Of a stretch of DNA of 64,000 nt, positions 21,736-40,219 are shown in pieces. A model generated the notes under the pieces. It did not search any database and was not told the origin of the DNA. It saw nothing but the letters and a program-made list of their open reading frames with translations. The translations under genes were made by a program, and so were the position numbers. The stretch lies in the NCBI GenBank assembly GCA_022701275.1, contig CP031740.1, forward strand, positions 1,933,001 through 1,997,000, read 5' to 3'. This stretch comes from Microcoleus vaginatus PCC 9802 (GTDB lineage: Bacteria; Cyanobacteriota; Cyanobacteriia; Cyanobacteriales; Microcoleaceae). The first letter of the stretch is position 1. The number at the start of each line of letters is the position of its first letter.

Positions 21736-24387
21736 TTAACCCAACCCTTCAACTAACAGATTGCGAGCAGTTTCCAACGCTTCCTGCAACTTACTTGCAT
21801 CGCGTCCCCCCGCTTGCGCCAAATTAGGCCGCCCGCCGCCTTTCCCGCCGCAAATTTGAGCAATTCCCCCGATAAACTTGCCAGCTTGCAATCCTTTCTT
21901 ATTGACTTCAGGACTAAAAGCTGCCACCAAACTTACCTTATCCGGTTCAGGAATTGATGCCAAAACAACCGCAGCATTTCCTAACTTTTGCTGCAATCTT
22001 TCCGCCGCTGTTTTCAGCGCTTCTGTATCCACATCACCCAATTGAGCTACAATGATTTTGAATTCACCTATCGCCTCAGCCGCACTCAGCAACTGGTCGG
22101 ATTTCGCGATCGCCAATTCCGACTTCACAGCAGCCAAATGTTTCTGAGTATCCTTCAACTCATTCTGCAAATTAGTAATCCGGTTCGGCAATTCTTCAGG
22201 CTTCGCCTTAAATCGATCGCCCAAATCGCGCACCACCTTATCGCGCACGTTCAAATAGTCCAAAACAGCTTGACCGGAAACCGCTTCAATCCTGCGAGTG
22301 CCCGCCGCTACCCCCGCTTCGGAAACAATCTTAAACAGCCCGATTTCTGCGGTATTGCTGACGTGAGTTCCGCCGCACAATTCCATCGAAACGCCGGGAA
22401 AATCGATCACCCGCACTACGTCGCCGTACTTCTCGCCAAACATCGCAGTCGCGCCTTTTTCTCTCGCAAGGGCGATCGGCATTTCTGCAACGACCGCAGC
22501 GTGGGCTTCAGCAATCCAACTATTAACTAAATCCTCAATTTTCTGCAACTCTTCTGCTGTGACAGCGCGCGGAGAATTGAAATCAAATCGCAATCTTTCT
22601 GACGATACCAGCGAACCAGCTTGCGAAATCGAATCATCCACAATTTTTCGCAAAGCTGATTGTAATAAGTGAGTTGCGGTGTGGTTAGCCTGAATTCGGC
22701 GGCGACCGCTGTTGTCAATTTTCGCAGTAATACTATCGCCCACTCTCAGCGTTCCCCGTTCCACAAAGCCGAAATGCACGAAGAAATCCGATTCCTTCTT
22801 CACATCATCAACTCTTACTAACAAACCATCACCATTATCTCCGCTTTTCAAATAACCTTTATCCCCAATTTGTCCGCCGGATTCAGCATAAAACGGCGTT
22901 TGGTTCAACACAACTTGTACCTCGGTACCGGCGGCTGCTTCCTCGACAGATTTGCCGTCAACTAAGATAACTTCCACCTCAGCTAAACTCGACAATTCAG
23001 CATAACCAACAAACTCAGTTCCCTGGATTGTTTCAGCCAACTTATCCAAAGAACCCTGCACCGTCAAATCGATTGTTTGGCGAGCATCTTTAGCGCGAGT
23101 TTGCTGTTCCTTCATCGCCCTTTCAAAGCCGTCCAAATCCACAGAAATTCCCTGTTCCTCAGCAATTTCTTGAGTCAGTTCTAAGGGGAAACCGTAGGTA
23201 TCGTAAAGAGTGAAAGCATCTTGACCGCTGATTTGTTGGTTTGCTTGCTGTTTTGTGTGATCGACAATTTCCTCCAGCAGCTTCTCTCCGCGTTCCAAAG
23301 TCTTGAGAAACTGCGCTTCTTCCCTTGCCAATTCCGCCTTAATTTGAGCTTCTCGCTGCCGCACGTTCGGATAAGCTGCTTCCGAAAGGGCGATCGCACT
23401 TTCAGCCACCCGCACCGTAAATTCGCCCTGAATTCCAATCAGCCGCCCGTGGCGCACCACCCGGCGAATCAAGCGGCGCAAAATGTAACCCCGGCCCACA
23501 TTCGACGCGCGAATTTCGTCCGCAATCATGTGCACCACAGCCCGAATGTGGTCGCCAATTACTTTCAGCGAAACCTTGACTTTTTCATCGCTATTGTGGT
23601 AATCAATCCCGGCAATTTCCGCCGCCGATTGAATGATCGGAAAAATCAAATCTGTTTCGTAATTATTGGGGACTTTCTGGAGGATTTGCGCCATCCGTTC
23701 CAGTCCCAAGCCAGTATCAATATTTTGATTTTGCAGCGGTGTTAAATTGCCCTCTGCATCTTTATTGTACTGCATGAAAACCAGGTTGTAGAATTCAATA
23801 AACCTGCTATCATCTTCGAGGTCAATATTGTCGCCTCTCTCTGGGTAGAAATCATAGTAAATCTCCGAACAGGGGCCGCAGGGGCCAGTCGGGCCGGATT
23901 GCCAGAAATTGTCATCTTCTCCCATGCGCTGAATGCGATCGCCCGGAATGCCAATTTCATCGCGCCAAATCGCAAAAGCTTCGTCATCTTCTCGGAAAAC
24001 GCTAACAACCAAATTGGACGCTGGTAAACCGAAAACTTCCGTGGAAAGTTCCCACGCCCAGGCGATCGCCTGTTTCTTGAAATAATCCCCGAAACTGAAA
24101 TTACCCAACATTTCAAAAAACGTGTGGTGGCGGGCGGTGCGGCCGACGTTTTCGATGTCGTTGGTGCGGATGCACTTTTGAGAAGTGGTGGCGCGCGGTG
24201 ATTCGGCGGTGCGCTGTCCCAGAAATATCGGCTTGAATTGTAGCATTCCGGCGATCGTCAGCAACACCGTCGGATCTTCGGGCACCAAAGAAGCACTCGG
24301 CAACATCTTATGTCCCCGCTGAGCATAAAAGTCGAGGAAGGTTTGGCGGATTTGGCTGCCACTGAGAAACTTAGGAGAAATAGACAT
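21736..24387 (-). CDS. alaS: Alanyl-tRNA synthetase
   Basis: 883 residues from ATG 24387 (MSISPKFLSGSQIRQTFLDFY), the standard AlaS start; an upstream ATG at 24477 would only add repeat-encoded residues. Class II catalytic core (FFEMLGNFSFGDYFK, FWQSGPTGPCGPCSEIYYDF), a full-length editing domain with HTATHLL and CGGTHV zinc ligands, and a C-terminal oligomerisation/C-Ala domain ending GGGRPNLAQAGG. It charges tRNA-Ala and clears mischarged Ser/Gly. A housekeeping, single-gene unit. Confidence 0.97.
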   Translation of the reverse strand: MSISPKFLSGSQIRQTFLDFYAQRGHKMLPSASLVPEDPTVLLTIAGMLQFKPIFLGQRTAESPRATTSQKCIRTNDIENVGRTARHHTFFEMLGNFSFGDYFKKQAIAWAWELSTEVFGLPASNLVVSVFREDDEAFAIWRDEIGIPGDRIQRMGEDDNFWQSGPTGPCGPCSEIYYDFYPERGDNIDLEDDSRFIEFYNLVFMQYNKDAEGNLTPLQNQNIDTGLGLERMAQILQKVPNNYETDLIFPIIQSAAEIAGIDYHNSDEKVKVSLKVIGDHIRAVVHMIADEIRASNVGRGYILRRLIRRVVRHGRLIGIQGEFTVRVAESAIALSEAAYPNVRQREAQIKAELAREEAQFLKTLERGEKLLEEIVDHTKQQANQQISGQDAFTLYDTYGFPLELTQEIAEEQGISVDLDGFERAMKEQQTRAKDARQTIDLTVQGSLDKLAETIQGTEFVGYAELSSLAEVEVILVDGKSVEEAAAGTEVQVVLNQTPFYAESGGQIGDKGYLKSGDNGDGLLVRVDDVKKESDFFVHFGFVERGTLRVGDSITAKIDNSGRRRIQANHTATHLLQSALRKIVDDSISQAGSLVSSERLRFDFNSPRAVTAEELQKIEDLVNSWIAEAHAAVVAEMPIALAREKGATAMFGEKYGDVVRVIDFPGVSMELCGGTHVSNTAEIGLFKIVSEAGVAAGTRRIEAVSGQAVLDYLNVRDKVVRDLGDRFKAKPEELPNRITNLQNELKDTQKHLAAVKSELAIAKSDQLLSAAEAIGEFKIIVAQLGDVDTEALKTAAERLQQKLGNAAVVLASIPEPDKVSLVAAFSPEVNKKGLQAGKFIGGIAQICGGKGGGRPNLAQAGGRDASKLQEALETARNLLVEGLG

Positions 24388-24457
24388 GACAAGAACTGTT
24401 AAGTATGTAAAGATGTAGCAACAATAGAATTTATAGGACTTACGCACGGGTGTCCAG

Positions 24458-24521
24458 AAACCCGGTTTTTCTACCAAAATACTTGCTTAAAATCCTCAAT
24501 TTCGGTAGAAAAACCCGGTTT
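24458..24521. repeat. 18-bp inverted repeat of the ACCCGGTTT family
   Basis: Arms AAACCCGGTTTTTCTACC (24458-24475) and GGTAGAAAAACCCGGTTT (24504-24521) pair with a single mismatch and enclose 28 nt. Located upstream of alaS. Confidence 0.85.
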
Positions 24522-25507: not shown

Positions 25508-26116
25508 ATGGCCGAAATAACTAAAGAAGAAATGCGCGAACGGCTGGGAAATATCGACCAGATTCGCGATATAATTTTTGGAGCGCAGCTTAGAGAATAC
25601 GATAATCGCTTCGATAAAATAGATTCCGACTTGTCCATGATGCAGCAAGATATGCAAAGTCGCATCGAACACGTGAAGACAGTTCTGTCTGCAGAAATGA
25701 AGGTGGCCGTTGATTCGTTAGAAAAGAAAGTTAAATCGCTCACCTCAAACACGCAAGAAGAAAGCGCCGACCTCCGTCAGCAAATCGATCGCGTTAACCG
25801 CAAATTCTCCAGCAACATGGAAGCCCTAGACGAGGCGATCGACAATCAAACCAGTTCGCTTCGCGACGAACTCTCCAAAACCAGAGATCGACTATCTGAA
25901 GAAAGCCGCACTTTGAAAACACAAGTGTTTGAAGAGCTCGATCGTCGCTTTTCCATGCTCAGAGATGTTAAAGTTTCTAGAGACGACATGGCAGAAATTC
26001 TGTTTGAACTCGGCATGAGGCTCAAAGGGACAGAATTTGTACCCGAACTTAAAGGCGCTGCTGATAATAAGTTAAATACCGAATTTCTGTTGCCGGAGCG
26101 CCACCATAACGGATAA
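25508..26116 (+). CDS. Coiled-coil protein, first gene of the GTPase signalling cluster
   Basis: 202 residues from ATG 25508 (MAEITKEEMRERLGNIDQIRD) with TAGGT-type spacing upstream; the open frame reaches back to 25334 without conviction. Residues ~20-150 are continuous heptads (DNRFDKIDSDLSMMQQDMQ, VDSLEKKVKSLTSNTQEE). The end (SRDDMAEILFELGMRLKG) may be a small globular helix pair. No signal peptide. It resembles cyanobacterial coiled-coil proteins found next to OmpA/GTPase genes; partner binding by coiled coil is inferred. The next gene starts 6 bp later. Confidence 0.85.
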   Translation: MAEITKEEMRERLGNIDQIRDIIFGAQLREYDNRFDKIDSDLSMMQQDMQSRIEHVKTVLSAEMKVAVDSLEKKVKSLTSNTQEESADLRQQIDRVNRKFSSNMEALDEAIDNQTSSLRDELSKTRDRLSEESRTLKTQVFEELDRRFSMLRDVKVSRDDMAEILFELGMRLKGTEFVPELKGAADNKLNTEFLLPERHHNG

Positions 26117-26122
26117 TAACGC

Positions 26123-28840
26123 ATGGCTTTACCGAAAGAAAATCCGGCTGACGACAATGAGTTAGAGGGTTTTGTTTCTAAACCTGACGAGTCTGCTGCC
26201 GATGCAGCAACCCAGCTAGAACCCTTGCTGAATCTGTTAGTCGATCTCAAAATTATTGCAGGTTCCAACCAGCAAAATGCAGAGATCGAAGATGACAGCA
26301 GTGGCGAAAATAATCAAGCTGGGGCCCTCGGCGGGTTGATGGATTTGTTAGGTATTTCCTCAGAAAAGCAAGAGGAAGTTGCAGCGAGTGTGCCCGAAAC
26401 TGGCGACGATCGCCAACCGGAGTCTGGCGATTCCCCGCCTGTTGCAGACGAGTTAAAAAGTTTGCTGTTGACTACTCACAAACTCAACACTTCAGAACTG
26501 GAAAAAGGCTATTCCTCAGCTAAAACTATAGATGTTTCCGCGATCGTCCAGCCGGATTTGGAGGAGGAATTACAGCCTGTCGAAGAATTGTCTAACTTGA
26601 CAATAAAAGATTCTCTACAGGAAGTACAGGATCAAAAATCCCACGGGCTCGATCGGCAACAAGATGTTGCCCCTCCCGAAACCGAGTCACAATCCTCGGA
26701 AATTCCCGATAATCCCATAGTTTCCCCAGTCTCAGAGCCACCAGAAACTGCATATTTAGAGCCGGTGGTTGCTTCGCTTCAATCGATGCCAAACTTGGTA
26801 GAACAGCCCACACCGATATCGCAGCCAGGAGAAATATTAGGCCAAATTAAACAGGATTTAAATGAAGCCGACAGCGCGATGGAAAGGCTGCAAAATCTGA
26901 TGTTTGGCGAGCAAATCTCCGATATCGAGCAAGTGAAAAATCTGCTGGCAGAAAACGATTTGCCGGGGGTGCGCCACCTGATGGCAACAATCGACGATAA
27001 ATTAGGAAAATTGGAGCACCAAATCTACGAGCCCCAAGAGTTGATTGAGTTGATGCTGCCTTGGATCGCAGAAATTCTCAGCCGCAAAATTGCTGATTCG
27101 AGAGAAGAAGTTGTTAACGCGATAGTGCCAATTATTGACGAAGTGATTAGGGCAAAAACTCAGGAAAACAAGTCGGCAATGAGTGCGGCAATAGCTGAGC
27201 TGCTTCCCGAGGCACTGGCTCAACAAATAGTGAATTCGCCAGCGGATATTGCTAATGCGATCGCCCCAGAAATCGGTTTGGCAATTAAAGAGCAAATTCG
27301 CCTGGACAAAGAGTCGATCGTCCAGGCCCTCGCACCAGAAATGGGCAAAACGATTACAGCCCAAATAAAACTCGAACGCGACTCTATGGTGGATGCGCTC
27401 TATCCCGTAATTGGCAGTACAATTTCCCGATACATGGCAGAAGCTATCAAGACAATCAATGAAAAAGTGTCAAATGCCATCAGCGTCGAAGGATTCCAGA
27501 GAAAAATTCGCTCCAAAGTACAAGGAGTCTCCGAAGCTGAATTAATCCTCAAAGAATCAGTACCCTTTACCGTCCAAGCAGCCTTCTTAATTCACAAAGC
27601 ATCTGGCTTGATAATTTCCGAAGTTCAAAACTCAGAAAGCTACCAGTTAGAATCAGAAATGGTAGCAGGAATGCTCACAGCTATTCGCAGCTTTGTTAAC
27701 GACTGTATCGTTGGGCCGGGAGAAGTTTCCGAACTAAATCAAATTGAATACGGCGACTCCAAGATTATGCTAGAAGTAGCGGGATATTGCTACATGGCCG
27801 TCGTGATTAAAGGAGAACCGCCCGACTCTTTTATCAAGAAAACACGAGAAACCGTTAGTAATCTCATTCTTAATTACGCTAAAGTAATTCACGAGTTTAA
27901 CGGCGATCCGGGTACTATACCGGAGTCGCTGCACCCGTTCATAAAAACTTTATTCGACCCGCTGCAAAAAGAAAAATCAACAAAACCCCCGATCGCCCTA
28001 GCGGGTATTGGTTTAGCCGCCCTAAGCTTAATCTTAGTACCTTGGGGAATTTATCAGTACCGCAGCAGTGTTGAGCGCCGCCTCGAAGCTAATGCCGTCG
28101 CAGCTTTAGCATCCACTCCCGAATTAGCAGTTTACCGCTTAGATGTTGCAGTTGATGGCAAAACTTTAAAGCTAACGGGAAAGTTGCCAAATCAAGAATT
28201 GCGGGCACAAGCAGAAAAAATAGCCGCATCAACTGCACCGAAATTGCAATTAGATAATAGAATTATAGCTGTAGATGTCCCCCCAGATCCAGTTTTGACG
28301 GCGGCTGAGGTGCAGCGGATTACCGCCGTTTTGAACCAGAGAGAGGGCGTTTCTATTTCTACGCGGTATGGCGATCGCAAACTTACAGTAGAGGGCCGAG
28401 TTAGAGACAGTGCCGACGCACAGAAAATAGCTGAGTCCCTGAAGCAAATTCCCGGCGTTCAGTCGGTCATCAGTACCGTTAAATTAGAGCCGGTGAAAAT
28501 TACAACCCGCATCTACTTCGAGCAAGGAACGACAAAATTAGACTCAACAGATGAAGAAATCATCGCCCGTGTCAAAAATTTCATGGATCAATATCCTCAA
28601 AAACAGATTAAGATAATTGGGCACAGCGATCAAAGTGGAGAACTTGCTAAAAATCAACAGTTGTCGCTCAGACGTGCCACCGCCGTGCGAGATGCTTTAG
28701 TGCGGCAAGGTGCTAACCCGAAGCGACTCCAAACGGTTGGCGTGGCGCATCCTCCTGCCGACGTGGAACCCAATCAACCGCGAATTTTAAGCAGATGCGT
28801 GCTATTTGAACCAATAACTAAGACTATAAACAGTAAATAA
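26123..28840 (+). CDS. Roadblock/longin-like segment, TM helix, BON-like and OmpA domains
   Basis: 905 residues. Acidic disordered N-terminus (~1-250) with helical segments to ~470, including repeated units around ALAPEMGKTITAQIKLERDSM. Residues ~478-610 (FTVQAAFLIHKASGLIISEV, GDSKIMLEVAGYCYMAVVIK) read like a roadblock/longin fold. One membrane helix follows (~625-645, IALAGIGLAALSLILVPWGI), then two BON-like modules (~663-786) and a C-terminal OmpA peptidoglycan-binding-type domain (~792-896, IIGHSDQSGELAKNQQLSLRRA). Topology: the N-terminal part is cytosolic and the OmpA part periplasmic. Roadblock folds commonly regulate small GTPases, and a GTPase gene starts 2 bp downstream. Confidence 0.85.
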   Translation: MALPKENPADDNELEGFVSKPDESAADAATQLEPLLNLLVDLKIIAGSNQQNAEIEDDSSGENNQAGALGGLMDLLGISSEKQEEVAASVPETGDDRQPESGDSPPVADELKSLLLTTHKLNTSELEKGYSSAKTIDVSAIVQPDLEEELQPVEELSNLTIKDSLQEVQDQKSHGLDRQQDVAPPETESQSSEIPDNPIVSPVSEPPETAYLEPVVASLQSMPNLVEQPTPISQPGEILGQIKQDLNEADSAMERLQNLMFGEQISDIEQVKNLLAENDLPGVRHLMATIDDKLGKLEHQIYEPQELIELMLPWIAEILSRKIADSREEVVNAIVPIIDEVIRAKTQENKSAMSAAIAELLPEALAQQIVNSPADIANAIAPEIGLAIKEQIRLDKESIVQALAPEMGKTITAQIKLERDSMVDALYPVIGSTISRYMAEAIKTINEKVSNAISVEGFQRKIRSKVQGVSEAELILKESVPFTVQAAFLIHKASGLIISEVQNSESYQLESEMVAGMLTAIRSFVNDCIVGPGEVSELNQIEYGDSKIMLEVAGYCYMAVVIKGEPPDSFIKKTRETVSNLILNYAKVIHEFNGDPGTIPESLHPFIKTLFDPLQKEKSTKPPIALAGIGLAALSLILVPWGIYQYRSSVERRLEANAVAALASTPELAVYRLDVAVDGKTLKLTGKLPNQELRAQAEKIAASTAPKLQLDNRIIAVDVPPDPVLTAAEVQRITAVLNQREGVSISTRYGDRKLTVEGRVRDSADAQKIAESLKQIPGVQSVISTVKLEPVKITTRIYFEQGTTKLDSTDEEIIARVKNFMDQYPQKQIKIIGHSDQSGELAKNQQLSLRRATAVRDALVRQGANPKRLQTVGVAHPPADVEPNQPRILSRCVLFEPITKTINSK

Positions 28841-28842
28841 TT

Positions 28843-29382
28843 ATGTCAGTTACTATATCTAAAAAAATGTGCATGATTGGCGATTTTGGCGTGGGCAAAA
28901 CCAGCCTGATCCGCCGTTTTGTCGATCAGAAATTCAGCGACGAGTACCTGTCCACTGTGGGAGTAAAAATTTCCCGCAAAATCTTAGAATTAGAAGGCGT
29001 AAAACAGCCGGAAATAGTCACAAAAGCACAGTTGCTAATTTGGGACTTAGAAGGACATACAAAATTCAAAGGAATAGCACCGACTTACTTGCAGGGAGCT
29101 AGCGGCGTTTTAATCGTTGCCGATGTCACCCGCTCCGAAACAGTTGAGCGAATCTCCGAACACATTCAGCTTTTTTCTTCAGTCAATCCTAAAGGTTCAA
29201 TAATCGTCGCTTTGAACAAAGTAGACTTGATTGAGGAGGAAAAATTGGCGCTGCTAGTGGAAATATCCCATGCGATATGTCAAGACAAAGTAATAGCAGT
29301 TTACACGACATCTGCTAAAACAGGCAAAGATGTTGACGAAATTTTCTATAAACTAGCTTACACAATGATAGAACCAGTATGA
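28843..29382 (+). CDS. Ras/Rab-like small GTPase
   Basis: 179 residues with all GTPase motifs: G1 GDFGVGKTSLI, switch I region DEYLSTVGVKI (Thr conserved), G3 WDLEGH (DxxG; Glu before Gly, with His in place of the usual catalytic Gln), G4 NKVD, G5 SAK. It lacks a prenylation tail. His at the Ras-Gln61 position suggests slow intrinsic hydrolysis that could need a partner. It overlaps the following kinase gene by 4 bp (ATGA) and follows the roadblock/OmpA gene by 2 bp, implying one functional unit. Confidence 0.93.
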   Translation: MSVTISKKMCMIGDFGVGKTSLIRRFVDQKFSDEYLSTVGVKISRKILELEGVKQPEIVTKAQLLIWDLEGHTKFKGIAPTYLQGASGVLIVADVTRSETVERISEHIQLFSSVNPKGSIIVALNKVDLIEEEKLALLVEISHAICQDKVIAVYTTSAKTGKDVDEIFYKLAYTMIEPV

Positions 29383-30935
29383 ACCCCATTCTAAAAAAGT
29401 TATTGAACCCGCAACAAATAGAGTATTTTGTAGTAAATCACCATTTCATCATTCAGGAAACCTCCGCCAAAGTGCAGCATTATGCCGATACTCCGGGCGA
29501 CGCGATACCCGGTGCAGATGCTCGCATGAGTTTTCCCGAACTGATTGGCATTGAAAATATCCTCATGTCTATCATTATGGGACGGCTGCCGGGTTTTGAA
29601 GTCAAAGGTATCGCTCGGTTTGCCGACCAAAACCGCCCTTTATACTTTGATATGTTGGCTATCAAATATGAAGACGAACAAGAAGATGTGCCAAGTACAT
29701 TGCTAATTTTGATTGAAGATACCACCGAAAAGATGGTGATGAAGCAATCGTTGATTCAGAGCGCTAATGAAGCTAATCTTTTGGTTAGTGCCTTAGCCGC
29801 TTCTAAAGATTATATAGATAAAGTTATTCGTTCGATGGGCGATGCTTTGTTGGTGACAACAACATTAGGAACTATCAAAACAATCAATCAATCGGCCCAA
29901 TGGTTATTTGGGTATAGCGAAGCAGAATTGATCGGTCGCCCCCTGTCTTTAATCTTACTCGAAGAAACATTAATTTGCCAAGGTCGCCACCGCTATATTT
30001 TGTCTCAGAAAGAGCTGCGTAGAGAACTACAAATAGTCTGCACTAATAAAGCAGGAGAAGAAATTTGGGTAGAATTTTCCTGTTCGCCAATTCAGACCGA
30101 ATTAGAGGGACTTTACGATTTCATTTATATAGGCAGGGACATCACAGAACGCAAACAACAAGAAATAGAAATTCGCGGCTCTTTGGCAAAAGAGCAAGAA
30201 CTCAGACAGGTAAAATCTCGTTTTTTCTCAATGATTGCTCACGAATTCGGCAATCCTCTAAGTACAGTATTATTTGCTACTAAAATCCTCCAAGACTACG
30301 GCGACGAAATCACCCACGCCGAAAAACAAAAATACCTGCAACACGTTAAATCAGCATCTCAACAGATGGCTCAGCTATTAGATGACGTGCGGTTGCTTAG
30401 CAGCGCCGAAGCCGGAAAACTCGAATTCTATCCCGCACCAGTTGACTTAAAAAAATTTTGCAGCGAGTTAGTAGAATCAATTAAAATTAGTTATGGAAAA
30501 AATCATACAATTAACTTTATTTGTCAAGAATTAGTCACGCCCGCGACCAAAAATGATAACGAGTCGCAGGAAACGCAAAACTTGCCCGCACTAGATCCAA
30601 AATTGCTGCGGCACATCTTAACAAATTTGCTGTCAAATGCTGTTAAATATTCGCCGATCGACAGCAATATTTATTTTGAATTAAATTGCCAGAATAATGA
30701 AGAAGCTACATTTAAAATTAAAGACGCAGGCATTGGCATTCCTCTAGAAGACCAAGAACAACTGTTTGAATCTTATTACCGAGCCAAAAATGTCGGAAAA
30801 ATACCCGGTACAGGACTGGGTTTATCCATAGTCAAGCAGTGTGTAGACTTGCACGGAGGTCAAATCGAATTTTCCAGCGAGACAGGGTTAGGCACTACCT
30901 TTATAGTCAAAATTCCATTTTACCAACACAGATAA
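29379..30935 (+). CDS. PAS-containing histidine kinase
   Basis: 518 residues. An N-terminal module (~1-125, KKLLNPQQIEYFVVNHHFII) is shared with the adenylate cyclase encoded next. A PAS domain follows (~145-265, ending YIGRDITERKQQE), then HisKA with the phospho-acceptor in MIAHEFGNPLS (~288). The HATPase domain has the N box LLSNAVKYSP, DAGIGIP and GTGLGLSIVK. No membrane segment, so it is a cytosolic sensor, probably sensing a ligand or the GTPase state. Start codon overlaps the GTPase stop. Confidence 0.94.
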   Translation: MNPILKKLLNPQQIEYFVVNHHFIIQETSAKVQHYADTPGDAIPGADARMSFPELIGIENILMSIIMGRLPGFEVKGIARFADQNRPLYFDMLAIKYEDEQEDVPSTLLILIEDTTEKMVMKQSLIQSANEANLLVSALAASKDYIDKVIRSMGDALLVTTTLGTIKTINQSAQWLFGYSEAELIGRPLSLILLEETLICQGRHRYILSQKELRRELQIVCTNKAGEEIWVEFSCSPIQTELEGLYDFIYIGRDITERKQQEIEIRGSLAKEQELRQVKSRFFSMIAHEFGNPLSTVLFATKILQDYGDEITHAEKQKYLQHVKSASQQMAQLLDDVRLLSSAEAGKLEFYPAPVDLKKFCSELVESIKISYGKNHTINFICQELVTPATKNDNESQETQNLPALDPKLLRHILTNLLSNAVKYSPIDSNIYFELNCQNNEEATFKIKDAGIGIPLEDQEQLFESYYRAKNVGKIPGTGLGLSIVKQCVDLHGGQIEFSSETGLGTTFIVKIPFYQHR

Positions 30936-30992
30936 ATAGATTAATTTTAGATAGTGCGCTACCGAGGGCGCATTCACTACTAAAAATTCAAC

Positions 30993-33818
30993 ATGAAAAC
31001 CCTGTTAAAAAAGCTGTTAGTTCCCCCCCACTTGGAGTACCTAGCACTGGATAAAGACTTTTTAATCCAAGAAACCTCTATCAAAGTGCAGCGGTTTGGC
31101 GAGTGTCCCGAGGAAGTAGTCGCCGGCAACGATGTCCGCATTCCCTTTCCAGAATTGGTGGGAACTGAAGAAATTTTAATCGATATTTTTGAAAAACGTT
31201 TGCCAAATTTTGAAGTAAAAGCGATCACGCGGCTATTAGAAAATGGTTCGCGGCTTTATTTTGATATGTATATTGTCGATTTTGCCAATGACGAGAATTA
31301 TCCGAGATTAATTATATTTTTTCAAGATGTAACTGATAGGATGGCTTTAGAACAAACTCTAGTCCAAGCTACCAATGAAATGGATATTTTATTGAGTACC
31401 TTAGCCACTACTAATAATTATGTTGAAAAAATTATTACTTCAATGGCCGAAGTTTTGTTGGTAACAACAGCCTCGGGAAAGATTAAAAAAGTCAATCAAG
31501 CGGCTCAAGATTTGTTCGGTTACAGCGAATCAGAATTAGTAGGTCAGCAAATAGACGCTCTTGCTGCTTTTGGCTCCTCTTTGCAAGCAGTCAGCCAAGA
31601 GGAGCCTCAACAATCTCAAACTCACACCGAAGTAATTTGCACGGCAAAAAGCGGAAAAAAGCTCACAGTTTCGTTTTCGTGTACGGCGATTTCGACTGAT
31701 ATTAAAGGCGTTTCTGGCTCTTGGCCCGCCGTTCAAGATTTCGTGTACATCGGGCGCGATGTCACAGATAGACAGCGCGCCCGCAAGCGACAAATAACTC
31801 AGTACGTCACCACTCGCATCCTGTCGGCATCCGAAACAATCAAAAAAGCTATAGCAGCAATTCTGCCCGTAATTTGTGACAGCTTGGGATGGGATACTGC
31901 CGAACTTTGGATGCCAGAAGCTGGGGAAAAACTGCTGTCAGAAACTAAGAGAATAACTGCGGTTTCCGACCCCAATTTGCTTCGGTGCGTCGCCAGTTGG
32001 ACAAAACGCTCAGTTTCTATCCCCAAATTTGCCGAATTTACGGAACAAATGACTTGTGCGTTTGGCGAAGGACTACCTGGTTTCGTTTGGGCCAGCGGTT
32101 CCTCTCAGTGGATTGCCGATGTCACCAAAAGCGACAGTTGTATACGCCGCGAAATCGCTGCTGAAGAAGGACTGCACGGAGCTTTTGGTTTTCCAATTTT
32201 GGGCGACTACGACCCTGAAAATTCTGCCAAGTCTGTGTTGGGCGTGATAATTTTTTTCAGCCGCGAAGTGCAGTGTTTTGATGAAGAATTGCTCCCGATA
32301 ATCGCAACCATCGGCAGCCAACTCGGTCAATTCATCAAGCGCAAACAAGCGGAAATAGCTTTGCGGGAAAGCGAAGAACAACTGCGAGACTTATTTGAAA
32401 ATGCTACTGACTTAATTCAAAGTATTGGAGCAGACGGTCATTTTTTGTATGTAAATCGGGCTTGGCGGGAAACTTTGGGCTACACCGAAGCAGAAATTGC
32501 TCAAATGACTGTTTTTGATATCATTCATCCGAACAGTTCCCCCGAGTCTCTGGATATATTGTATCAAGCTCTTACCCAAAAAAGCGTCAATGAAAATACC
32601 TCGTATCCCGCCTCTATTGAAATAATATTTATCACGAAGACTCATGAAAAAATTTTGCTCGAAGGCAGCATAAGCTGTAAATTTGCGGCAGGTTCGCTAG
32701 TAGCGATTCGCGCTATTTTGCGAGACATTACTGCTCGAAAAATGACCGAAGACGCCCTAGCTAAATCTGTGTCTCTGCTGCTAGCAACTTTTGATTCTAC
32801 TGCAGACGGTATTTTAGCGATTGACAGGAGCGGAAAAATCGTCACTTTCAATCGACAATTTGTGGAAATGTGGGGCATACCTAATGAAGTGATGGCACTG
32901 CGAGACGACGCCACAACGATCGCCTTTGTCCTGAACCAACTCAAAGACCCCCAAGCATTTCAAGAGAGAATACAATCACTTTACGAGCAGCCAGAAGCCG
33001 AAAGTTACGACTTGTTGGAATTTCAAGACGGCAGATTTTTTGAACGCTATTCGCAACCGCAGCGGCTGGGAGATACAATTATCGGCAGAGTCTGGAGTTA
33101 CCACGACATTACGGAACGCAAGCAAGCAGAAGATGCCCTGTGGGAAGAACAAGAAAAATCCGAAAAGCTGCTGTTAAATATCTTGCCCAAGGCAATAGCA
33201 GAACGCCTCAAGCAAAACGAAACTACTATTGCCGAATACTTTCCGGAAGTGACTGTTTTGTTCGCCGATATTGTGGGGTTTACTGCTTTGTCTGCCGTCA
33301 TGAATCCGATCGAACTTGTGGATCTCCTAAATAAGATTTTCTCAGGATTCGACCTTTTGTGCGAACGGCACGGTTTAGAGAAAATCAAGACCATCGGCGA
33401 CGCATACATGGCAGTAGGAGGACTGCCTGAACCCAGGGCAGACCACGCAGATGCGATCGCCAAAATTGCCCTAGATATGCAAGCAGAAATAGCCCAATTT
33501 AATGCTAACAATAATAAATATTTTAGCATCCGCATCGGCATTCACAGCGGCCCGGTTGTTGCCGGAGTAATTGGTATAAAGAAGTTTATTTATGATTTAT
33601 GGGGCGACACGGTAAATATTGCTTCCCGCATGGAATCTCAGGGTTTGCCTTGGCGGATTCAAGTGAGCGAAACTACTTATAAATTGTTGGATAATAAATA
33701 TTTGTTTCAGGAGCGAGGAATGATTGAAGTTAAAGGCAAAGGGGGAATGAAAACTTATATTCTCCTGGGTAGAAAATCAGGCAGCTCATCAGTCATCAGT
33801 CATCTGGCTGATGACTAA
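30993..33818 (+). CDS. Multi-sensor class III adenylate cyclase
   Basis: 941 residues. N-terminal module homologous to that of the preceding kinase (KKLLVPPHLEYLALDKDFLI), PAS (~140-255), GAF (~265-455), two more PAS (~460-715), a short coiled coil, then the cyclase domain (~735-935). The cyclase has both metal Asp (LFADIVGFT and IGDAYMAVGG), ATP-selecting Lys (LEKIKTIGDAY) and Asp (IYDLWGDTVN), and the Asn/Arg of NIASRM. Product should be cAMP, a motility and light-response messenger in filamentous cyanobacteria. No transmembrane segment. Confidence 0.93.
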   Translation: MKTLLKKLLVPPHLEYLALDKDFLIQETSIKVQRFGECPEEVVAGNDVRIPFPELVGTEEILIDIFEKRLPNFEVKAITRLLENGSRLYFDMYIVDFANDENYPRLIIFFQDVTDRMALEQTLVQATNEMDILLSTLATTNNYVEKIITSMAEVLLVTTASGKIKKVNQAAQDLFGYSESELVGQQIDALAAFGSSLQAVSQEEPQQSQTHTEVICTAKSGKKLTVSFSCTAISTDIKGVSGSWPAVQDFVYIGRDVTDRQRARKRQITQYVTTRILSASETIKKAIAAILPVICDSLGWDTAELWMPEAGEKLLSETKRITAVSDPNLLRCVASWTKRSVSIPKFAEFTEQMTCAFGEGLPGFVWASGSSQWIADVTKSDSCIRREIAAEEGLHGAFGFPILGDYDPENSAKSVLGVIIFFSREVQCFDEELLPIIATIGSQLGQFIKRKQAEIALRESEEQLRDLFENATDLIQSIGADGHFLYVNRAWRETLGYTEAEIAQMTVFDIIHPNSSPESLDILYQALTQKSVNENTSYPASIEIIFITKTHEKILLEGSISCKFAAGSLVAIRAILRDITARKMTEDALAKSVSLLLATFDSTADGILAIDRSGKIVTFNRQFVEMWGIPNEVMALRDDATTIAFVLNQLKDPQAFQERIQSLYEQPEAESYDLLEFQDGRFFERYSQPQRLGDTIIGRVWSYHDITERKQAEDALWEEQEKSEKLLLNILPKAIAERLKQNETTIAEYFPEVTVLFADIVGFTALSAVMNPIELVDLLNKIFSGFDLLCERHGLEKIKTIGDAYMAVGGLPEPRADHADAIAKIALDMQAEIAQFNANNNKYFSIRIGIHSGPVVAGVIGIKKFIYDLWGDTVNIASRMESQGLPWRIQVSETTYKLLDNKYLFQERGMIEVKGKGGMKTYILLGRKSGSSSVISHLADD

Positions 33819-33862
33819 AAGTGTTGCTAAAGTTAATTAGCAATACTTTTTGACCAAGACTA

Positions 33863-36800
33863 ATGGAACTTGCTAATTTGTCGGCAAATTTACGATCGCC
33901 CGACGAAGCTGTCGATCGCCACCCTGCCACGGTTGGGTCCTCGACTTCACTCGCAGAGGCGATCGCCCTGATGCGGCGGACGAGCAACCCTTGCCCACTG
34001 CCTAATTCACCTGCATTTTCCGACTCAAACGAAACTGTAAAAGCATCTATTAGTTGCGTCTTAGTTGTCGATGAAAATCAGCTAGTCGGACTGCTAAGCC
34101 CGGAAGATGTGCTGAACTTAGCCGCGGCCAAATACGGATGGCAAGGCATGAAAGTTGCCGACGCAATGACGCGGAATTTAATTGTCTTAAAAGAATCAGA
34201 ATTTACAGATCTTATTACCGCATTTAAGCTATTTTGTCAATACTCGATCGATTGCTTGCCAATTGTAGATGAACGGGGTCAGCCAGTAGGTATAGTCAGC
34301 GAAAAAAGGATTCGCCCAGCAATGTATAGCTGGATCGAGGCACGGCATCAAGAAATGGCAAAGCTCCAGGAACAATGGCAACTGTTAGAGGGCAATTGTG
34401 AACGAGAAAAAGTCAGCGATCGCCAAAATGCCGAAAGTGCCATGCAGCAGAGCGAGGCGCGCTACCTGGCGATTGTGGAAGACCAAACCGAACTGATTTG
34501 CCGCTACCTCCCAGACGGTAAAATAACTTTTGTCAATCAAGCTTACTGCCGTTATTTCGGCGTGCAGCCGTTGGACTTGCTCGGCAAATGCTTCCTGTCC
34601 CTGCTGCCAGAAGCAGACCGAGAAATTTTTCAACAGCAATATACTTCTGTGTCTCCCGACAACCCTATTTTTACCTGCGAACACCGAGTAATTTTGCCCA
34701 GCGGGGAAATTCGCTGGCAGCAGTGGATCGATCGGGCGATATTCGACGAGAGCGGACAAATCGTCGAGTATCAAGCTGCAGGCCGCGATGTCACGGATCG
34801 CAAACAAGCAGAAATCGCTTTGCAGCAGCTCAATGCAGAGTTAGAACTGCGAGTGCAGCAGCGGACACAATGGTACGAAATGGCAGTATCGGCCGGCAAA
34901 GTGGGGGTTTGGGACTGGAATTTGGAAACCGGCGAAATCTACATTGCTCCGTCTTTGAAAGCTTTGTTGGGCTATCAGGACGCAGAGATTCCCAACCGCA
35001 TGGAAAATTGGGTGTCTCACGTTCATCCCGACGATCGAGTTGCTGTCGAGGAAGCAGTAAAGGCTTATCTAGAGGGTGTGACAGACATTTATGAAGTAGA
35101 ACACCGGATGCTGCGTAAAGACGGCAGCACCTGCTGGATACTTGCCCGCGGCAGCGCGATCCGATCGGCTTGTGGCAAAGCATTACACCTGACTGGCACT
35201 GACACCGACATTACCGAGCGCAAATTGACCGAAGAAAAGCTCCAAAACTCCGAAGCAGAACTGCTGGCGCTGTTTAATGCCATGACGGATATCGTGCTGG
35301 TTTTCGACGCAAGCGGCCGCTACCTCAAAATCGCCCCCACGGCTCCCGAACTGCTGTACAAACCGGCTCCTGAAGTGGTGGGCAAAACCCTCGCCGAAGT
35401 CTTCCCAGAAGCGGAAGCTAATTTTGCCCTAGCCCACATTCGCCAAACATTGGCATCGGGGCAAACCCACAGAGTTGAATACAGGATGGAAATTGGCTGC
35501 AAGTTATTTTGGTTTGATGCCAGTATTTCGCCGCTGGAGTTCGATCGAGTGATGTGGGTCGCCCGAGACATTACCGCTCGCAAACACGCAGAAGCTGCAC
35601 TGCAAAAGAGCGAGGAAAAGTTTCGCAACTTATTTGACGATGCTCCGATCGCGCTTGGTTTGGCAAGCGTGCGCGACTACCGCACGATCAAAGTGAATGA
35701 AGCTCACCGCCAGATGTTGGGCTACAGCGATTCGGAGTTGGCTACCATGACTTTTACTGAACTCACGCATCCAGAAGATTTACAAGGAGATGTGGAGCAA
35801 GTCAAGCAGTTGGTGGAGGGCCATATTTCTCGCTTCCAAAGGGAAAAACGCTTGATTAAGAAGAATGGCGAGCTGATGTGGGCCAACTTGACGGTAACGC
35901 TGATCCGCGATCGCGAGGGCATTCCTCTCTACAGCATGGGGGCGATCGAAGATATCAGTTATCGTAAGCGGGCAGAAATGGAATTTCAGCAGTTAAAAGA
36001 ACGCCTGCAATTTTTACTGGGTTCTAATCCGGCGGTAATTTTTACAGCCGCACCGATAGGGGACTTTTGTACTACTTACATCAGCGACAACGTTCAGACA
36101 ATCCTTGGCTACGACCCCCAAGAATTGTTAGCAGATTGTAAATTTTGGTCTAGCAGGATTCACCCTGAAGATCGGCCACAATTTCTAGTAAATTTTTTGG
36201 ATTTGTCCGCAGAAAAAAATTGCATTTCCGAGTATCGTTTTCTACACCAAGACGGAATTTACCGCTGGCTAAGGACGGAACTAAAACTATTGGTTGACAG
36301 CAGGGGCATTCCGATCGAAATTATTGGTTACGCCGCTGATATCAGCAATTCTAAATACGCCGAACTCGCTAGGGGGCAGCAGTTCGAGCAAGAACGGCTT
36401 GTGGAGGCGATCGCCCGTCGTGTCCGCCAGTCTTTGCAATTAGAGGAAATTCTCAACACCACGGTTGCGGAACTCCAGCAAGTATTATTAGCCGATCGAG
36501 TTTTGGTTTATCAACTTTTACCCAAAAGGGGCGGGCGAGTCATTGCTGAAGCCGTGGCAGAAGGATGCAGCCAACTCGTGGATAGATATTTTGGCGAAGA
36601 GGTTTTTCCGCCCCAAAGTTATCAGCTTTATTTGCAAGGGCGAATTTCTGCGATCTCCGAACTAGATGACCCCTGCATTACACCTTGTGTGATGGAGTTT
36701 ATGAAACAAATTCAAGTTAGGGCAAAGTTAGTAGTGCCGATTATTCAGCACAGCCAGGTTTGGGGATTGCTGATTGCCCACCAATGCGATCGGCCTCGTG

Positions 36801-37570
36801 ATTGGCAAGAATGGGAAATCAATTTATTTCAGCAGTTGGTGAATCAATTGGCGATCGCGATTCAGCAATCTCTACTTTACCAGCAACTGCAAGCTGAACT
36901 GAGCGATCGCAAACAAGCGGAAGCAAATTTGAAAAACTCCCTCAAAGAAAAAGAAATTTTGCTCAAAGAAATTCACCACCGCGTTAAAAACAACCTCTGC
37001 GTAGTTGCCAGTCTGTTAGAATTGCAATCGAACACAGTTGCCGACCCGCAAGTAAGCAAAATGTTTGAAGAAAGTCAGAATCGCCTTTATTCTATGGCTC
37101 TGATTCACGAAAAACTATACCGCTCGACTAACCTAGCGCAAATTAATTTTGGCGAATATCTCGAAGATTTGGTAAGTAACTTGTTTCACTCTTACAATAT
37201 TAGCAACAACCGAATTCAGTTGCAGGTATTAGCTGAGCCAATTTCCCTAAATCTTGAAACCGCTACTCCCTGCGGTTTAATTGCCAATGAATTGGTTTCA
37301 AATACCTTGAAACACGCTTTTCCTGATGGCACAACTGGTACAGTTAGTGTAGAATGCTATCAAACGGGCGATCAAGAAATCAACCTCTTAGTTAAGGACA
37401 ACGGTATTGGCTTTCCTCAAAACTTAGATTTTCGGAAAACTCACTCGATGGGGTTTCAAGTTGTCTGCACTTTAACCGAGCAGTTAGAGGGAACTATCGA
37501 AATATCCAGAAAATTGGGTACATCTTTTCACTTAAAATTTAACGAGTTAAACTATTTTCAAAGATTGTAA
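33863..37570 (+). CDS. CBS-multiPAS-GAF histidine kinase (HisKA_2 type)
   Basis: 1235 residues. A CBS pair (~20-160, VADAMTRNLIVL, PVGIVSEKRIRP), five PAS/PAC units (~190-845), GAF (~850-1010), then a HisKA_2 kinase core with EIHHRVKNNLCVVASLLELQ (~1036) and a HATPase with ANELVSNTLKHAFPDG and DNGIGFP. HisKA_2 kinases usually phosphorylate separate receivers; the receiver-kinase gene begins 4 bp downstream. Soluble. The CBS pair suggests adenine-nucleotide sensing, which would fit with an adjacent cyclase. Confidence 0.93.
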   Translation: MELANLSANLRSPDEAVDRHPATVGSSTSLAEAIALMRRTSNPCPLPNSPAFSDSNETVKASISCVLVVDENQLVGLLSPEDVLNLAAAKYGWQGMKVADAMTRNLIVLKESEFTDLITAFKLFCQYSIDCLPIVDERGQPVGIVSEKRIRPAMYSWIEARHQEMAKLQEQWQLLEGNCEREKVSDRQNAESAMQQSEARYLAIVEDQTELICRYLPDGKITFVNQAYCRYFGVQPLDLLGKCFLSLLPEADREIFQQQYTSVSPDNPIFTCEHRVILPSGEIRWQQWIDRAIFDESGQIVEYQAAGRDVTDRKQAEIALQQLNAELELRVQQRTQWYEMAVSAGKVGVWDWNLETGEIYIAPSLKALLGYQDAEIPNRMENWVSHVHPDDRVAVEEAVKAYLEGVTDIYEVEHRMLRKDGSTCWILARGSAIRSACGKALHLTGTDTDITERKLTEEKLQNSEAELLALFNAMTDIVLVFDASGRYLKIAPTAPELLYKPAPEVVGKTLAEVFPEAEANFALAHIRQTLASGQTHRVEYRMEIGCKLFWFDASISPLEFDRVMWVARDITARKHAEAALQKSEEKFRNLFDDAPIALGLASVRDYRTIKVNEAHRQMLGYSDSELATMTFTELTHPEDLQGDVEQVKQLVEGHISRFQREKRLIKKNGELMWANLTVTLIRDREGIPLYSMGAIEDISYRKRAEMEFQQLKERLQFLLGSNPAVIFTAAPIGDFCTTYISDNVQTILGYDPQELLADCKFWSSRIHPEDRPQFLVNFLDLSAEKNCISEYRFLHQDGIYRWLRTELKLLVDSRGIPIEIIGYAADISNSKYAELARGQQFEQERLVEAIARRVRQSLQLEEILNTTVAELQQVLLADRVLVYQLLPKRGGRVIAEAVAEGCSQLVDRYFGEEVFPPQSYQLYLQGRISAISELDDPCITPCVMEFMKQIQVRAKLVVPIIQHSQVWGLLIAHQCDRPRDWQEWEINLFQQLVNQLAIAIQQSLLYQQLQAELSDRKQAEANLKNSLKEKEILLKEIHHRVKNNLCVVASLLELQSNTVADPQVSKMFEESQNRLYSMALIHEKLYRSTNLAQINFGEYLEDLVSNLFHSYNISNNRIQLQVLAEPISLNLETATPCGLIANELVSNTLKHAFPDGTTGTVSVECYQTGDQEINLLVKDNGIGFPQNLDFRKTHSMGFQVVCTLTEQLEGTIEISRKLGTSFHLKFNELNYFQRL

Positions 37571-37574
37571 AAAG

Positions 37575-38693
37575 ATGAGTTGTGCAGAAAAATTAATTAA
37601 TATTTTGATTGTCGAAGACGAACTCTTAATTGCTAAAAATCTATCCCCAAAATTAGAAAAATTAGGATATCAAATCGCCGATATCGTTTCTTCAGGAGCG
37701 GATGCAATCCAGCGCGCCCGCGAACTAAGACCCGATTTAATTTTAATGGATATAGTTATCAAAGGCGACATTGACGGCATAGAAACAGCAGCAATAATTA
37801 ATCAAGAATTAGATATACCAATTATCTATACAACTGCCTATGCTGACGACGAAACTTTGCAGCGAGCCGAAAAGACTGGTTCTTACGGCTACCTGCTCAA
37901 ACCTTTTAAAGAAAGAGAAATGCACGCTACTATCAAGATAGCACTGAGCAAACATCAAGAAGCAGTTAGTCTGAAAAAAATAATGGCGTTAGCAGCAGAA
38001 AAAAATGAAAATAGAGCCCGCTTTATTTCAATGGCTTACCACGATTTAAACACTCCTTTAACTACCATACAGTTATCTGCTGAAATGCTAGAAGATAGCG
38101 AATTGCAGGGAACCATCGGAACTACGAATACAAATGTTGATCGGATTAAAAGAGCCGTCAGTAATATGAGTGGGCTGCTGGAAGATATTTTAATGCTTAG
38201 CAAAGCAGAATCAGGTAAAATTTCCTTAAATTTAAATCAGATTAATGCGACGGATTTATGCAATTCTATTTTAGAAGAACTGCAACCTATCGTCACCGAC
38301 AAACACCTAGTACATTTCCGCAGTCACACAAATCCGCTGCACGCCAATCTCGATGCCAAACTACTGCACCACCTTCTGACTAATTTGCTTTCAAACGCCA
38401 TTAAATATTCTCCAAACGGTGGTAAGGTCAGTTTAGACTTAAGCTGCGAAAATCAACAAATAATTTTGTGCGTTCGAGATGAGGGAATTGGGATGACACC
38501 GGAATATCAAGGAAAACTATTTCAGCAGTTTGAACGGGGTGCTAATGTAGGCAAGATTAAAGGATCGGGTTTGGGACTCTGCATTGTCAAACACATAGTT
38601 GACCTGCACGGCGGTACAATAAGTGTGGAAAGTGCGATCGACAAAGGTACTACATTTATTGTCGCGCTGCCTTTTTTAGTTAATAGTCAGTAG
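37575..38693 (+). CDS. Receiver-histidine kinase hybrid
   Basis: 372 residues. The N-terminal receiver has acidic pocket VEDELL, phospho-acceptor in LILMDIVIKGD (~57), and Lys in LLKPFKE. HisKA follows, with the acceptor in MAYHDLNTPLTTIQL (~156), then a HATPase domain with LLSNAIKYSP, DEGIGM and GSGLGLCIVKH. It probably receives phosphate from the HisKA_2 kinase just upstream and passes it on or acts as a kinase gated by its receiver. Last gene of the cluster; the output regulator is not encoded here. Confidence 0.93.
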   Translation: MSCAEKLINILIVEDELLIAKNLSPKLEKLGYQIADIVSSGADAIQRARELRPDLILMDIVIKGDIDGIETAAIINQELDIPIIYTTAYADDETLQRAEKTGSYGYLLKPFKEREMHATIKIALSKHQEAVSLKKIMALAAEKNENRARFISMAYHDLNTPLTTIQLSAEMLEDSELQGTIGTTNTNVDRIKRAVSNMSGLLEDILMLSKAESGKISLNLNQINATDLCNSILEELQPIVTDKHLVHFRSHTNPLHANLDAKLLHHLLTNLLSNAIKYSPNGGKVSLDLSCENQQIILCVRDEGIGMTPEYQGKLFQQFERGANVGKIKGSGLGLCIVKHIVDLHGGTISVESAIDKGTTFIVALPFLVNSQ

Positions 38694-38703
38694 TCAGTAG
38701 TCA

Positions 38704-40008
38704 TTAGTCATCTATCCTTCTTCCTTCTTCCTTCTTCCTTCTTCCTTCTTCCTTCTTCCTTCTTCCTTCTTCCTTCTTCCTGACATCCGTTACATCCGTT
38801 ACATCCGTTACAGAATCCGTTGCCGAACTTCCTTCTGCGATAAATCTATGGGGAGACAAAAGCTCGATCGCCCTATCTTCTTCTCCCCCCGCCGCCTTCG
38901 CAAATCGCTCAGCCAAAGCAGGTACAATCACCAAAGGATTGCTGAGACCAGAAAAAACGTGCAATCCAGGGCGATCGGCAATCGGCCCCACTACAGGCAA
39001 ATTATCAGCGCTAAATGCCACAATACACTCGTGCCAAGTTGCCGGTAAACCTGCCAAATCAGGCAAAACTTTGCTGATTCCTGCACGAATTGCCGTTTCG
39101 CTCGTTTCGCGATCGACTGTAGCATTCAAATCGCTCAAAGTGCGCGACAATTGCCCAATCCGCAAACTCCCATCCTTAAACCCAATTGCACCCGAATCTA
39201 AAATCGGCGGCTGTAACTCTTTACCCGGTTCATCCCAAAGAAAATCCACCTCACTTCTACTCGATTCAGCTTCCAATTCAAAACGTTTTAATACCGCAGG
39301 CATCACCAAAGTCCGGAGTTTCAAATCCACAGGTGCAGTTTCCAAAATCTCCGTGCGCGTAAAATAAACTCCCACAGAAACACCAGCCGCCTTCAGCAAA
39401 CTCCGACTCCAACCTCCAGCACAAACCACAGCATTTTCACAACGATAAATTCCTTGCGCCGTCTTGACTCCCGAAATCCGATTTCCCTCTTCTATAAACC
39501 CAATTACTTCAGCAAATTCTATCGTTCCTCCCAACCGCAGAAACCCTTGACAATAAGCTTTATTTGTGGCTGTCGGCGAAATGTGGCCGTGACGCACAGT
39601 CAGAGCTCCGGCGATCGCACTTTTATTCAGCAAAGGTTCCAGCTCCCCAGCTTCTGCAACGCTCAAAAGCTGCGGAACAATCGCAAAATGCGCGTAATTA
39701 GCCGCCGCTTTTTCCGCATCAGTACCCGCATCAATTGTCAGCAACAAATCCAACTCGCGAAACTCAGTATCAGCATCTAATTCCGCCGATAAATTGCGGT
39801 GGCGTTCGATACCTTCCCGACACAATTGGCGAGTTAAATCAGTCGTTCCCGACCAATAAGCCAAGCCACCGTAACTAAAACGAGTCGCATTTTGCAGGGT
39901 AGCATCTCGTTCCAAAAGCAGCACAGCAAAACCTTTTTTTGCCAGTTCGTAACTCAGTGCAGCACCCGTAATGCCACCGCCGACAACAATCCAATCGTAA
40001 CTTTTCAT
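38704..40008 (-). CDS. FAD-dependent oxidoreductase (DAO/glycine oxidase-like) with repeat-encoded tail
   Basis: 434 residues from ATG 40008 (MKSYDWIVVGGGITGAALSY); the upstream ATG adds a basic leader. FAD-binding GxGxxG (VVGGGITGAALSYELAKKG, LLLERDA), a DAO-type middle part, and a C-terminal GPIADRPGLHVFSGLSNPLV region. After ~395 the protein becomes VTDVTDVTDV and then tandem RKKEEGR units encoded by microsatellites (38716-38812), not family sequence. The original stop was probably lost when the repeat arose. Likely oxidises an amino or hydroxy acid; substrate unknown. Confidence 0.9.
   Translation of the reverse strand: MKSYDWIVVGGGITGAALSYELAKKGFAVLLLERDATLQNATRFSYGGLAYWSGTTDLTRQLCREGIERHRNLSAELDADTEFRELDLLLTIDAGTDAEKAAANYAHFAIVPQLLSVAEAGELEPLLNKSAIAGALTVRHGHISPTATNKAYCQGFLRLGGTIEFAEVIGFIEEGNRISGVKTAQGIYRCENAVVCAGGWSRSLLKAAGVSVGVYFTRTEILETAPVDLKLRTLVMPAVLKRFELEAESSRSEVDFLWDEPGKELQPPILDSGAIGFKDGSLRIGQLSRTLSDLNATVDRETSETAIRAGISKVLPDLAGLPATWHECIVAFSADNLPVVGPIADRPGLHVFSGLSNPLVIVPALAERFAKAAGGEEDRAIELLSPHRFIAEGSSATDSVTDVTDVTDVRKKEEGRRKKEEGRRKKEEGRRIDD
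38716..38812. repeat. CCTTCTT heptamer and ACATCCGTT nonamer microsatellites
   Basis: About nine CCTTCTT heptamers followed by three ACATCCGTT units. They encode the terminal tail of the FAD oxidoreductase. A seven-base unit means any single copy gain or loss would change the frame and the protein's end. Confidence 0.93.
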
Positions 40009-40219
40009 GGGCAACTCAAAGAAAAGGAAAATATCATGCTTAGATTTTAGCTTACGTTTTTTCGGAACCAATCGAAAAACCTCTACCTACAGGAAGAGGC
40101 TGCCTGCGATCAGCATAACTGAAACTTCCACCCCTCGGGAGATGTTTGTGCAGGGAGATTTTTCGTTCAATAGTAGGAATTAGAGTCAGCAAAAAATTAG
40201 AAATACCAGAGAGGTTTTT

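Follow-up and report, generated by a model that had tools for sequence, protein, structure and literature searches.

A Group 1 Rup-type GTPase locus with a predicted longin-like anchor domain and an adenylate cyclase branch in Microcoleus vaginatus PCC 9802

Seven plus-strand genes lie almost end to end in a 64,000-nucleotide stretch of Microcoleus vaginatus PCC 9802 (contig CP031740.1, positions 1,933,001 to 1,997,000; hereafter the window), and they encode, among others, a membrane protein with an OmpA domain, a Ras-like GTPase, an adenylate cyclase and histidine kinases. Do these parts form one signalling system, is that system new, and what would connect the GTPase with the enzymes? The answer that best fits our models and comparisons is that the first five genes represent a known type of system, the Group 1 Rup set, with a hitherto unnamed longin-like domain in the membrane protein (the anchor) and a cyclic AMP (cAMP) branch. 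The gene coordinates of the original prediction, with gaps of 6, 2, -4, 57, 44 and 4 bp, were confirmed in the list of open reading frames (ORFs), as was its claim that the first kinase and the cyclase share an N-terminal module (42% identity; the N-module). Its domain calls held for OmpA (2.7e-17), Ras, the kinases and the cyclase, although two BON stretches before the OmpA domain had been missed; NCBIfam gave the same picture as Pfam at the domain level for the cluster proteins. The start of the first gene was taken as the ATG at 25508, the ORF program listing this frame from a TTG at 25334, and its product had no Pfam match above any cut-off. The features are the following.

25508..26116 (+): first gene of the Rup core, a coiled-coil-type protein of 202 residues (Pfam matches only below cut-off, many to coiled-coil families)
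26123..28840 (+): anchor protein, 905 residues (ORF list, Pfam, alignment)
27569..27955 (+): longin-like domain, anchor residues 483-611, predicted as strand-strand-helix-strand-strand-strand-helix-helix
27986..28054 (+): single predicted transmembrane helix, about residues 622-644 (a hydrophobic stretch kept in an alignment of 66 anchors)
28079..28744 (+): part of the anchor after the membrane helix, two BON stretches and the OmpA domain (Pfam; best stretches 653-705 and 798-874)
28843..29382 (+): Ras/Rab-like GTPase of Group 1 Rup type (Pfam Ras 9.6e-29, Rab-type solved relatives, motifs)
29379..30935 (+): output 1, histidine kinase with N-module, PAS, HisKA and HATPase_c (Pfam, alignment, model)
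29379..29822 (+): N-module of the kinase, a predicted PAS fold plus 32-residue helix (predicted structure, Foldseek)
30993..33818 (+): output 2, class III adenylate cyclase with N-module, then PAS, GAF, PAS and PAS (Pfam, alignment)
33234..33767 (+): catalytic domain of the cyclase, residues 748-925 (Guanylate_cyc 4.7e-67)
33863..37570 (+): accessory CBS-PAS-GAF-HisKA_2 kinase (Pfam; clear orthologues in close relatives only)
37575..38693 (+): accessory receiver-HisKA histidine kinase (Pfam; clear orthologues in close relatives only)

The core of this arrangement was published in 2014, so it is not the new system that had been proposed. In the sections of Wuichet and Sogaard-Andersen (PMC4316618) devoted to it, the four-gene Group 1 Rup set, with cyanobacteria among its hosts, includes a coiled coil, a conserved domain often followed by a transmembrane helix and an OmpA domain, and an output protein with a conserved glutamine; the outputs are typically GGDEF/EAL proteins or histidine kinases, and the domain of the anchor is called unknown. 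The same sections predict no interaction between Rup and MglB homologues, and state that no Rup member was experimentally characterised at that date. The window locus resembles this set in its Ras-like GTPase, of a kind that usually lacks the G3 glutamine, its coiled coil, its domain-transmembrane-OmpA protein and its output with a conserved N-terminal region. It differs in that the domain is here modelled as a longin and the N-terminal region as a PAS fold, and in that an adenylate cyclase is a recurrent output; compared with the 2014 set, both folds and the cAMP branch seem to be new. No Rup experiment, Rup longin or Rup cyclase was found among the titles and abstract starts listed by our literature search, which is weak evidence of absence given that most subscription journals lay outside it. 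The terms 'bacterial longin', 'longin domains in bacteria' and 'prokaryotic longin' led to no paper, the papers retrieved having only 'longin-like domain'. A 2026 preprint on MfpD restates, in the part concerned, the split between MglA and Rup (PMC13015309).

The core genes recur together well beyond the window. Among 291 sampled cyanobacterial genomes, relatives of the GTPase (expect value, E, <=1e-25) occurred in 33 and the middle domain of the anchor (E <=1e-10) likewise in 33, with 32 genomes holding both; one genome (G103) had the GTPase without the anchor domain and one (G193) the anchor domain without the GTPase. Of 37 loci that surround a GTPase gene in another genome, 33 contained the anchor domain, 30 a coiled-coil homologue detected by BLAST and 13 an N-module-bearing adenylate cyclase. 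We also compared 80 named loci, which hold 81 GTPase genes and are the best 80 of at least 545 confirmed candidates, close to the query; genes whose flanks were too short are excluded from the denominators for this set. The anchor lay upstream (within 4.5 kb) of 65/73 of these GTPase genes, and in 67 pairs the median gap between the two was 8 bp, 6 of these pairs being more than 1.3 kb apart. A coiled coil was present in 50/65, an N-module protein started no more than 1.5 kb downstream of the GTPase in 66/76, and an N-module cyclase was found somewhere in the locus in 21/60. In related genomes the GTPase gene thus has the anchor gene, and often a cyclase gene, close by, and neither of the two results named beforehand as refuting the original prediction (a middle domain of another predicted fold, or GTPase and cyclase genes that are not neighbours) occurred. 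The order inside the core is not fixed, since in four loci (L097, L098, L099 and L102) an N-module gene sits between anchor and GTPase.

The last two kinases behaved differently. Clear orthologues (near 900 and 580 bits) were found in 2/37 loci (L033 and L034), the remaining loci giving only low scores that come from shared PAS and kinase domains. Among the named loci, many of whose contigs end too early for a judgement, orthologues (>120 bits, >45% identity) were found in 11/80, from Microcoleus, Tychonema, Oscillatoriales and one cyanobacterial record; within these, L081 matched the last kinase alone, and the matches in L077 and L079 cover no more than a short stretch of the CBS-PAS-GAF-HisKA_2 kinase. 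The idea that all seven genes form one conserved system was rejected, the last two being clearly orthologous only near Microcoleus and Tychonema and the core reaching far wider. The suggested role in gliding or polarity was also given up for want of evidence: the genes occur in 33/291 sampled cyanobacteria, in records of Pleurocapsa and Xenococcus, which are not known to glide, and on rhizobial plasmids.

These plasmids show that a related gene set occurs in a second phylum. When plasmids were searched by tblastn with the anchor domain (E 0.01) or with the GTPase (E 1e-12), each search returned four records, one from Nostoc and three rhizobial. On the plasmid of Mesorhizobium sp. WSM1497 the order is hypothetical protein, OmpA family protein, Rab family GTPase and adenylate/guanylate cyclase, the hypothetical protein being a relative of the window coiled coil in the same position (BLASTP 2e-13). 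The cyanobacterial profiles matched its anchor domain at 8.8e-34 and its GTPase at 7e-52, both E-values being calculated over very few frames. Rhizobia with such copies could serve as laboratory hosts.

The motifs of the window GTPase are intact. Its search against solved structures matched 675 entries, and the best 60 bore Rab, Sec4, Ypt or general GTP-binding names, none of these 60 being named MglA. In the Ras numbering, the window protein carries Phe15 (28885-28887) at the Gly12 position and His72 at the Gln61 position. The former was Phe in 35 and Tyr in 2 of 37 GTPases found without a P-loop Phe pattern, and Phe in 82/82 of the named set, a figure that is partly built in because the search patterns for the named loci include the P-loop Phe. 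At the Gln61 position 75/82 GTPases of the named set had His, Ser, Asn, Arg or Lys and 7/82 had Gln, so that the lack of the G3 glutamine is not strict. The bulky residue at the Gly12 position and the usual loss of Gln61 make an ordinary arginine-finger GTPase-activating protein (GAP) unlikely, and the GTPase is probably controlled at the loading step.

The anchor has, in this order, a variable N-terminal region, a helical region, the middle domain, the transmembrane helix, two BON domains and the OmpA domain. To characterize the middle domain, we modelled a 215-residue stretch of the anchor with 60 sequences. The predicted order of elements is that of longins, a five-stranded sheet with a C-terminal helix pair; the core blocks had predicted local distance difference test (pLDDT) values of 72-90, in parts 83-90, and the helix at model residues 191-201 was confident, the long N-terminal helix being unreliable. 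In Foldseek the first rows were AP2 sigma, Ykt6, COPI and Rag complex chains (E 1.9e-4 to 9e-4), with nine rows at E <=0.001 and TRAPP chains at about 1e-3. VIA-align, in which rows within 1 Z unit count as tied, gave Z 12.4 for chain D of the Bet3-Trs33-Bet5-Trs23 complex (presumably Trs23), 12.3 for Sec22b, 12.2 for Vamp7, 11.6 for Fuzzy-Inturned, 11.4 for 3cue_C (Bet5, as named by the solved-structure sequence search), 10.9 for an Asgard roadblock, 10.4 for Mon1-Ccz1 and 10.2-10.5 for MglB. A roadblock/longin-type fold is thus well supported at the level of the model, and the original description of residues 478-610 as roadblock/longin-like agrees with the predicted core at 483-611, whose nearest relatives are longins. 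The preference for longin over roadblock is less certain: MglB trails the top-scoring chain by no more than about 2 Z units, and what sets the two apart is chiefly greater alignment length, together with the confident C-terminal helix. Membership in the roadblock (MglB) family was rejected, as longins top the structural ranking and Robl_LC7 was absent both from the 6 Pfam families matched by the anchor (E <=0.1) and from the 3 matched by its paralogue (0.001). Conservation of the anchor peaks in the helix before the domain (421-440), in the first core helix (511-530) and in the strand at 551-560; in roadblock/longin pairs, dimerisation and GTPase contact both use the core helix and the strands beside it.

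Several results weigh against the longin assignment. Overall confidence of the model was moderate (mean pLDDT 66.7, predicted template-modelling score 0.60), model residues 111-130 fell to pLDDT 55-59, and template-modelling scores over the query were low in the best 50 Foldseek rows (0.29-0.46). At the sequence level, no anchor member rose above a Pfam longin cut-off, and an hmmsearch of solved structures with two alignments gave nothing below E 0.4 (TRAPP Bet5, second alignment). An hmmscan of 60 anchor domains, with 25/36 families listed, found Fuz_longin_1 in one (E 0.092), the unrelated DUF6120 (11 members) and DUF6831 (best 0.0017) matching more often or better. In the longin-family scan of the 291 genomes 38/39 anchor domains had no match. 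The one sequence hint in favour of a longin came from the anchor paralogue of the M. vaginatus genome, the best Fuz_longin_1 match there (24.4 bits, E 1.3e-4, below the cut-off of 26.1; E 8.7e-4 in the Pfam scan of its own protein), followed by one at 0.0066 with internal stops. PF19036 at E <=1 appeared in 52/291 genomes, in a single anchor and otherwise weakly, never above cut-off, and also, below cut-off, in 2/14 control genomes.

The paralogue just mentioned, a second anchor of 1203 residues (L152:7417-11028, minus strand), lies at about 5.13 Mb of the genome, which is one contig of 6.7 Mb. It adjoins pdxA, is 46% identical to the window anchor over 622 aligned positions and exceeds it in the length of its helical N-terminal region. 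At the matches in L154 and L155 there are anchors 1213 and 1203 residues long.

The shared N-module ties the two outputs to the locus. Its model was good (pLDDT 87.1), with a PAS fold and, after it, a helix of 32 residues, and the best 50 Foldseek matches listed were PAS, LOV or PAS-containing proteins; by sequence, N-modules seldom reach the Pfam PAS models (PAS_9 in 6/68). Three clear N-modules were found in the M. vaginatus genome, two of them those of the kinase and the cyclase at the Rup locus. The third (L153:6603-8759, plus strand, at about 4.53 Mb) heads a PAS-GAF-GGDEF protein far from Rup genes. Cyclic di-GMP may therefore be a further branch. Related genomes have the module at the N-terminus of kinases and hybrid kinases as well as of adenylate cyclases and GGDEF proteins, which suggests that the outputs change and the head is kept. 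Eighteen N-module proteins of the named loci had no kinase or cyclase match; 10 were scanned, of which 4 had GGDEF; neither a GGDEF nor a cyclase domain was found in the remaining 6, one of which gave a weak HisKA match.

In class III cyclases two Asp residues bind the metals, a Lys/Asp pair selects ATP, and Asn and Arg stabilize the transition state. All of these, including the Lys/Asp for adenine, are present in 30/30 aligned cyclases, those of the window and of Mesorhizobium among them, and the window enzyme should, judged from its sequence, make cAMP. The genome has 35 Guanylate_cyc matches above cut-off, so that a cyclase near a GTPase means little in itself and it is the shared N-module that brings this one in. 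An N-module tree (a quick method, with few columns and long branches) needed 11 label changes, only 1 of them forced by starred branches; it shows neither a single nor a multiple origin of the cyclase branch, and a single origin was not retained as established.

The explanation that we favour is that the locus encodes an envelope-tethered signalling module of Group 1 Rup type, in which a longin platform controls the kinase and the cyclase, and we give this reading a probability of about 0.5. The OmpA domain would tether the anchor to peptidoglycan, with one helix spanning the inner membrane. On the cytosolic side the longin domain would dimerise, probably aided by the preceding helical region, and, as its fold and gene pairing suggest, would load the Rup GTPase with GTP or hold it, as longin pairs do for Rabs. 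Control would probably act at GTP loading, in keeping with the Phe at the Gly12 position and the usual lack of Gln61. GTP-bound Rup would then contact the PAS-type N-modules, whose long helix could set histidine kinase and adenylate cyclase activity at the same site. Against so close a coupling stand the loci whose GTPase has no anchor (4/37 around the GTPase genes of other genomes and 8/73 in the named set), the second anchor of M. vaginatus, which has no adjoining Rup GTPase gene, and the N-terminus of the Mesorhizobium cyclase, whose scores (profile E 7e-4, HHalign probability 9%) make an N-module there probable at best. Adjacency of anchor and GTPase is accordingly not obligatory.

The lone second anchor also fits a possible, less favoured explanation, that the longin domain serves as effector or scaffold: GTP-loaded Rup, loaded spontaneously or by another protein, would bind it and bring the PAS-headed outputs to the cell wall. 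Because SNAREs and adaptor coats contain longins too, the fold alone is no proof of exchange; many of them (SNAREs, adaptor sigma/zeta) do not act as exchange factors, and chains of this sort occur in our structural matches. The tight pairing of anchor and GTPase genes and the matches to longins of Rab guanine nucleotide exchange factors (RabGEFs; TRAPP, Fuzzy-Inturned, Mon1-Ccz1) suit a regulator at least as well, and the structural ranking, with its ties, does not decide between effector and exchange factor. It is improbable, in our view, that the domain is a GAP platform, as MglB is for MglA, with an N-module glutamine completing catalysis in trans, a role of the kind raised by Wuichet and Sogaard-Andersen (PMC4316618). 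Gln123 and Gln127 of the N-module are nearly invariant, but in the model both lie in the long helix after the PAS fold rather than in a loop, and Gln127 is kept in 5/5 N-modules whose GTPase has its own Gln, which lends no support to a glutamine provided in trans; the Phe or Tyr at the Gly12 position (37/37) would moreover impede an arginine finger. That independent signalling genes merely share a site, with no common pathway, seems very improbable, although the abundance of class III cyclases in the genome and the local addition of the last two kinases would agree with it: the core recurs in cyanobacteria and on alphaproteobacterial plasmids, and the common N-module binds kinase and cyclase to the locus.

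Compared with the RabGEF longins, the envelope-tethered module shares the predicted fold and, here, a gene beside a Rab/Ras-type GTPase. It differs in being bacterial, in the fusion to a peptidoglycan-binding half beyond the membrane and in having no significant sequence match to them, and its exchange role is inferred. MglA-MglB and the actinobacterial conservon (CvnA-D), as portrayed in the same portions of PMC4316618, likewise pair a small GTPase with a partner of the roadblock/longin superfamily, the conservon also having a histidine kinase. The envelope-tethered module differs from them in its OmpA tether, in the longin order of elements in the modelled domain, in a GTPase nearest to Rab-type structures and in an anchor with no Robl_LC7 Pfam match. 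According to the relevant part of Zhang and colleagues (2012; PMC3521125), longins and MglB-type roadblocks are linked by circular permutation and bind GTPases in a similar mode. If the conserved neighbour is indeed a longin platform, the partner of the GTPase and the likely regulatory step follow from it, and bacterial Rab-like signalling would be tied to cAMP. A further idea, which we regard as rather doubtful, is that the locus is a bacterial counterpart of the eukaryotic longin-Rab pairing, with Rup and a wall-tied longin regulator steering cAMP and phosphorelay, and that this pairing is older than eukaryotes or has moved between domains of life; the 2014 account (PMC4316618) derives the eukaryotic Ras superfamily from the prokaryotic Rup family.

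The cluster is flanked by genes on the opposite strand, alaS (21736-24477) and an oxidoreductase-like gene (38704-40071), both named from their translations without a family search. Promoter-like matches (28, against 22.0 with a standard deviation of 4.7 in shuffles) and terminator-like matches (14, against 17.5 with a standard deviation of 4.8) were near expectation. Tandem arrays were found at 283-964 (123-bp units, 5.5 copies) and 20118-21199 (138-bp units, 7.8 copies) of the window, and seven-base and nine-base repeats at 38715-38812 make the 3' end of the oxidoreductase-like minus-strand ORF encode a simple repeated peptide.
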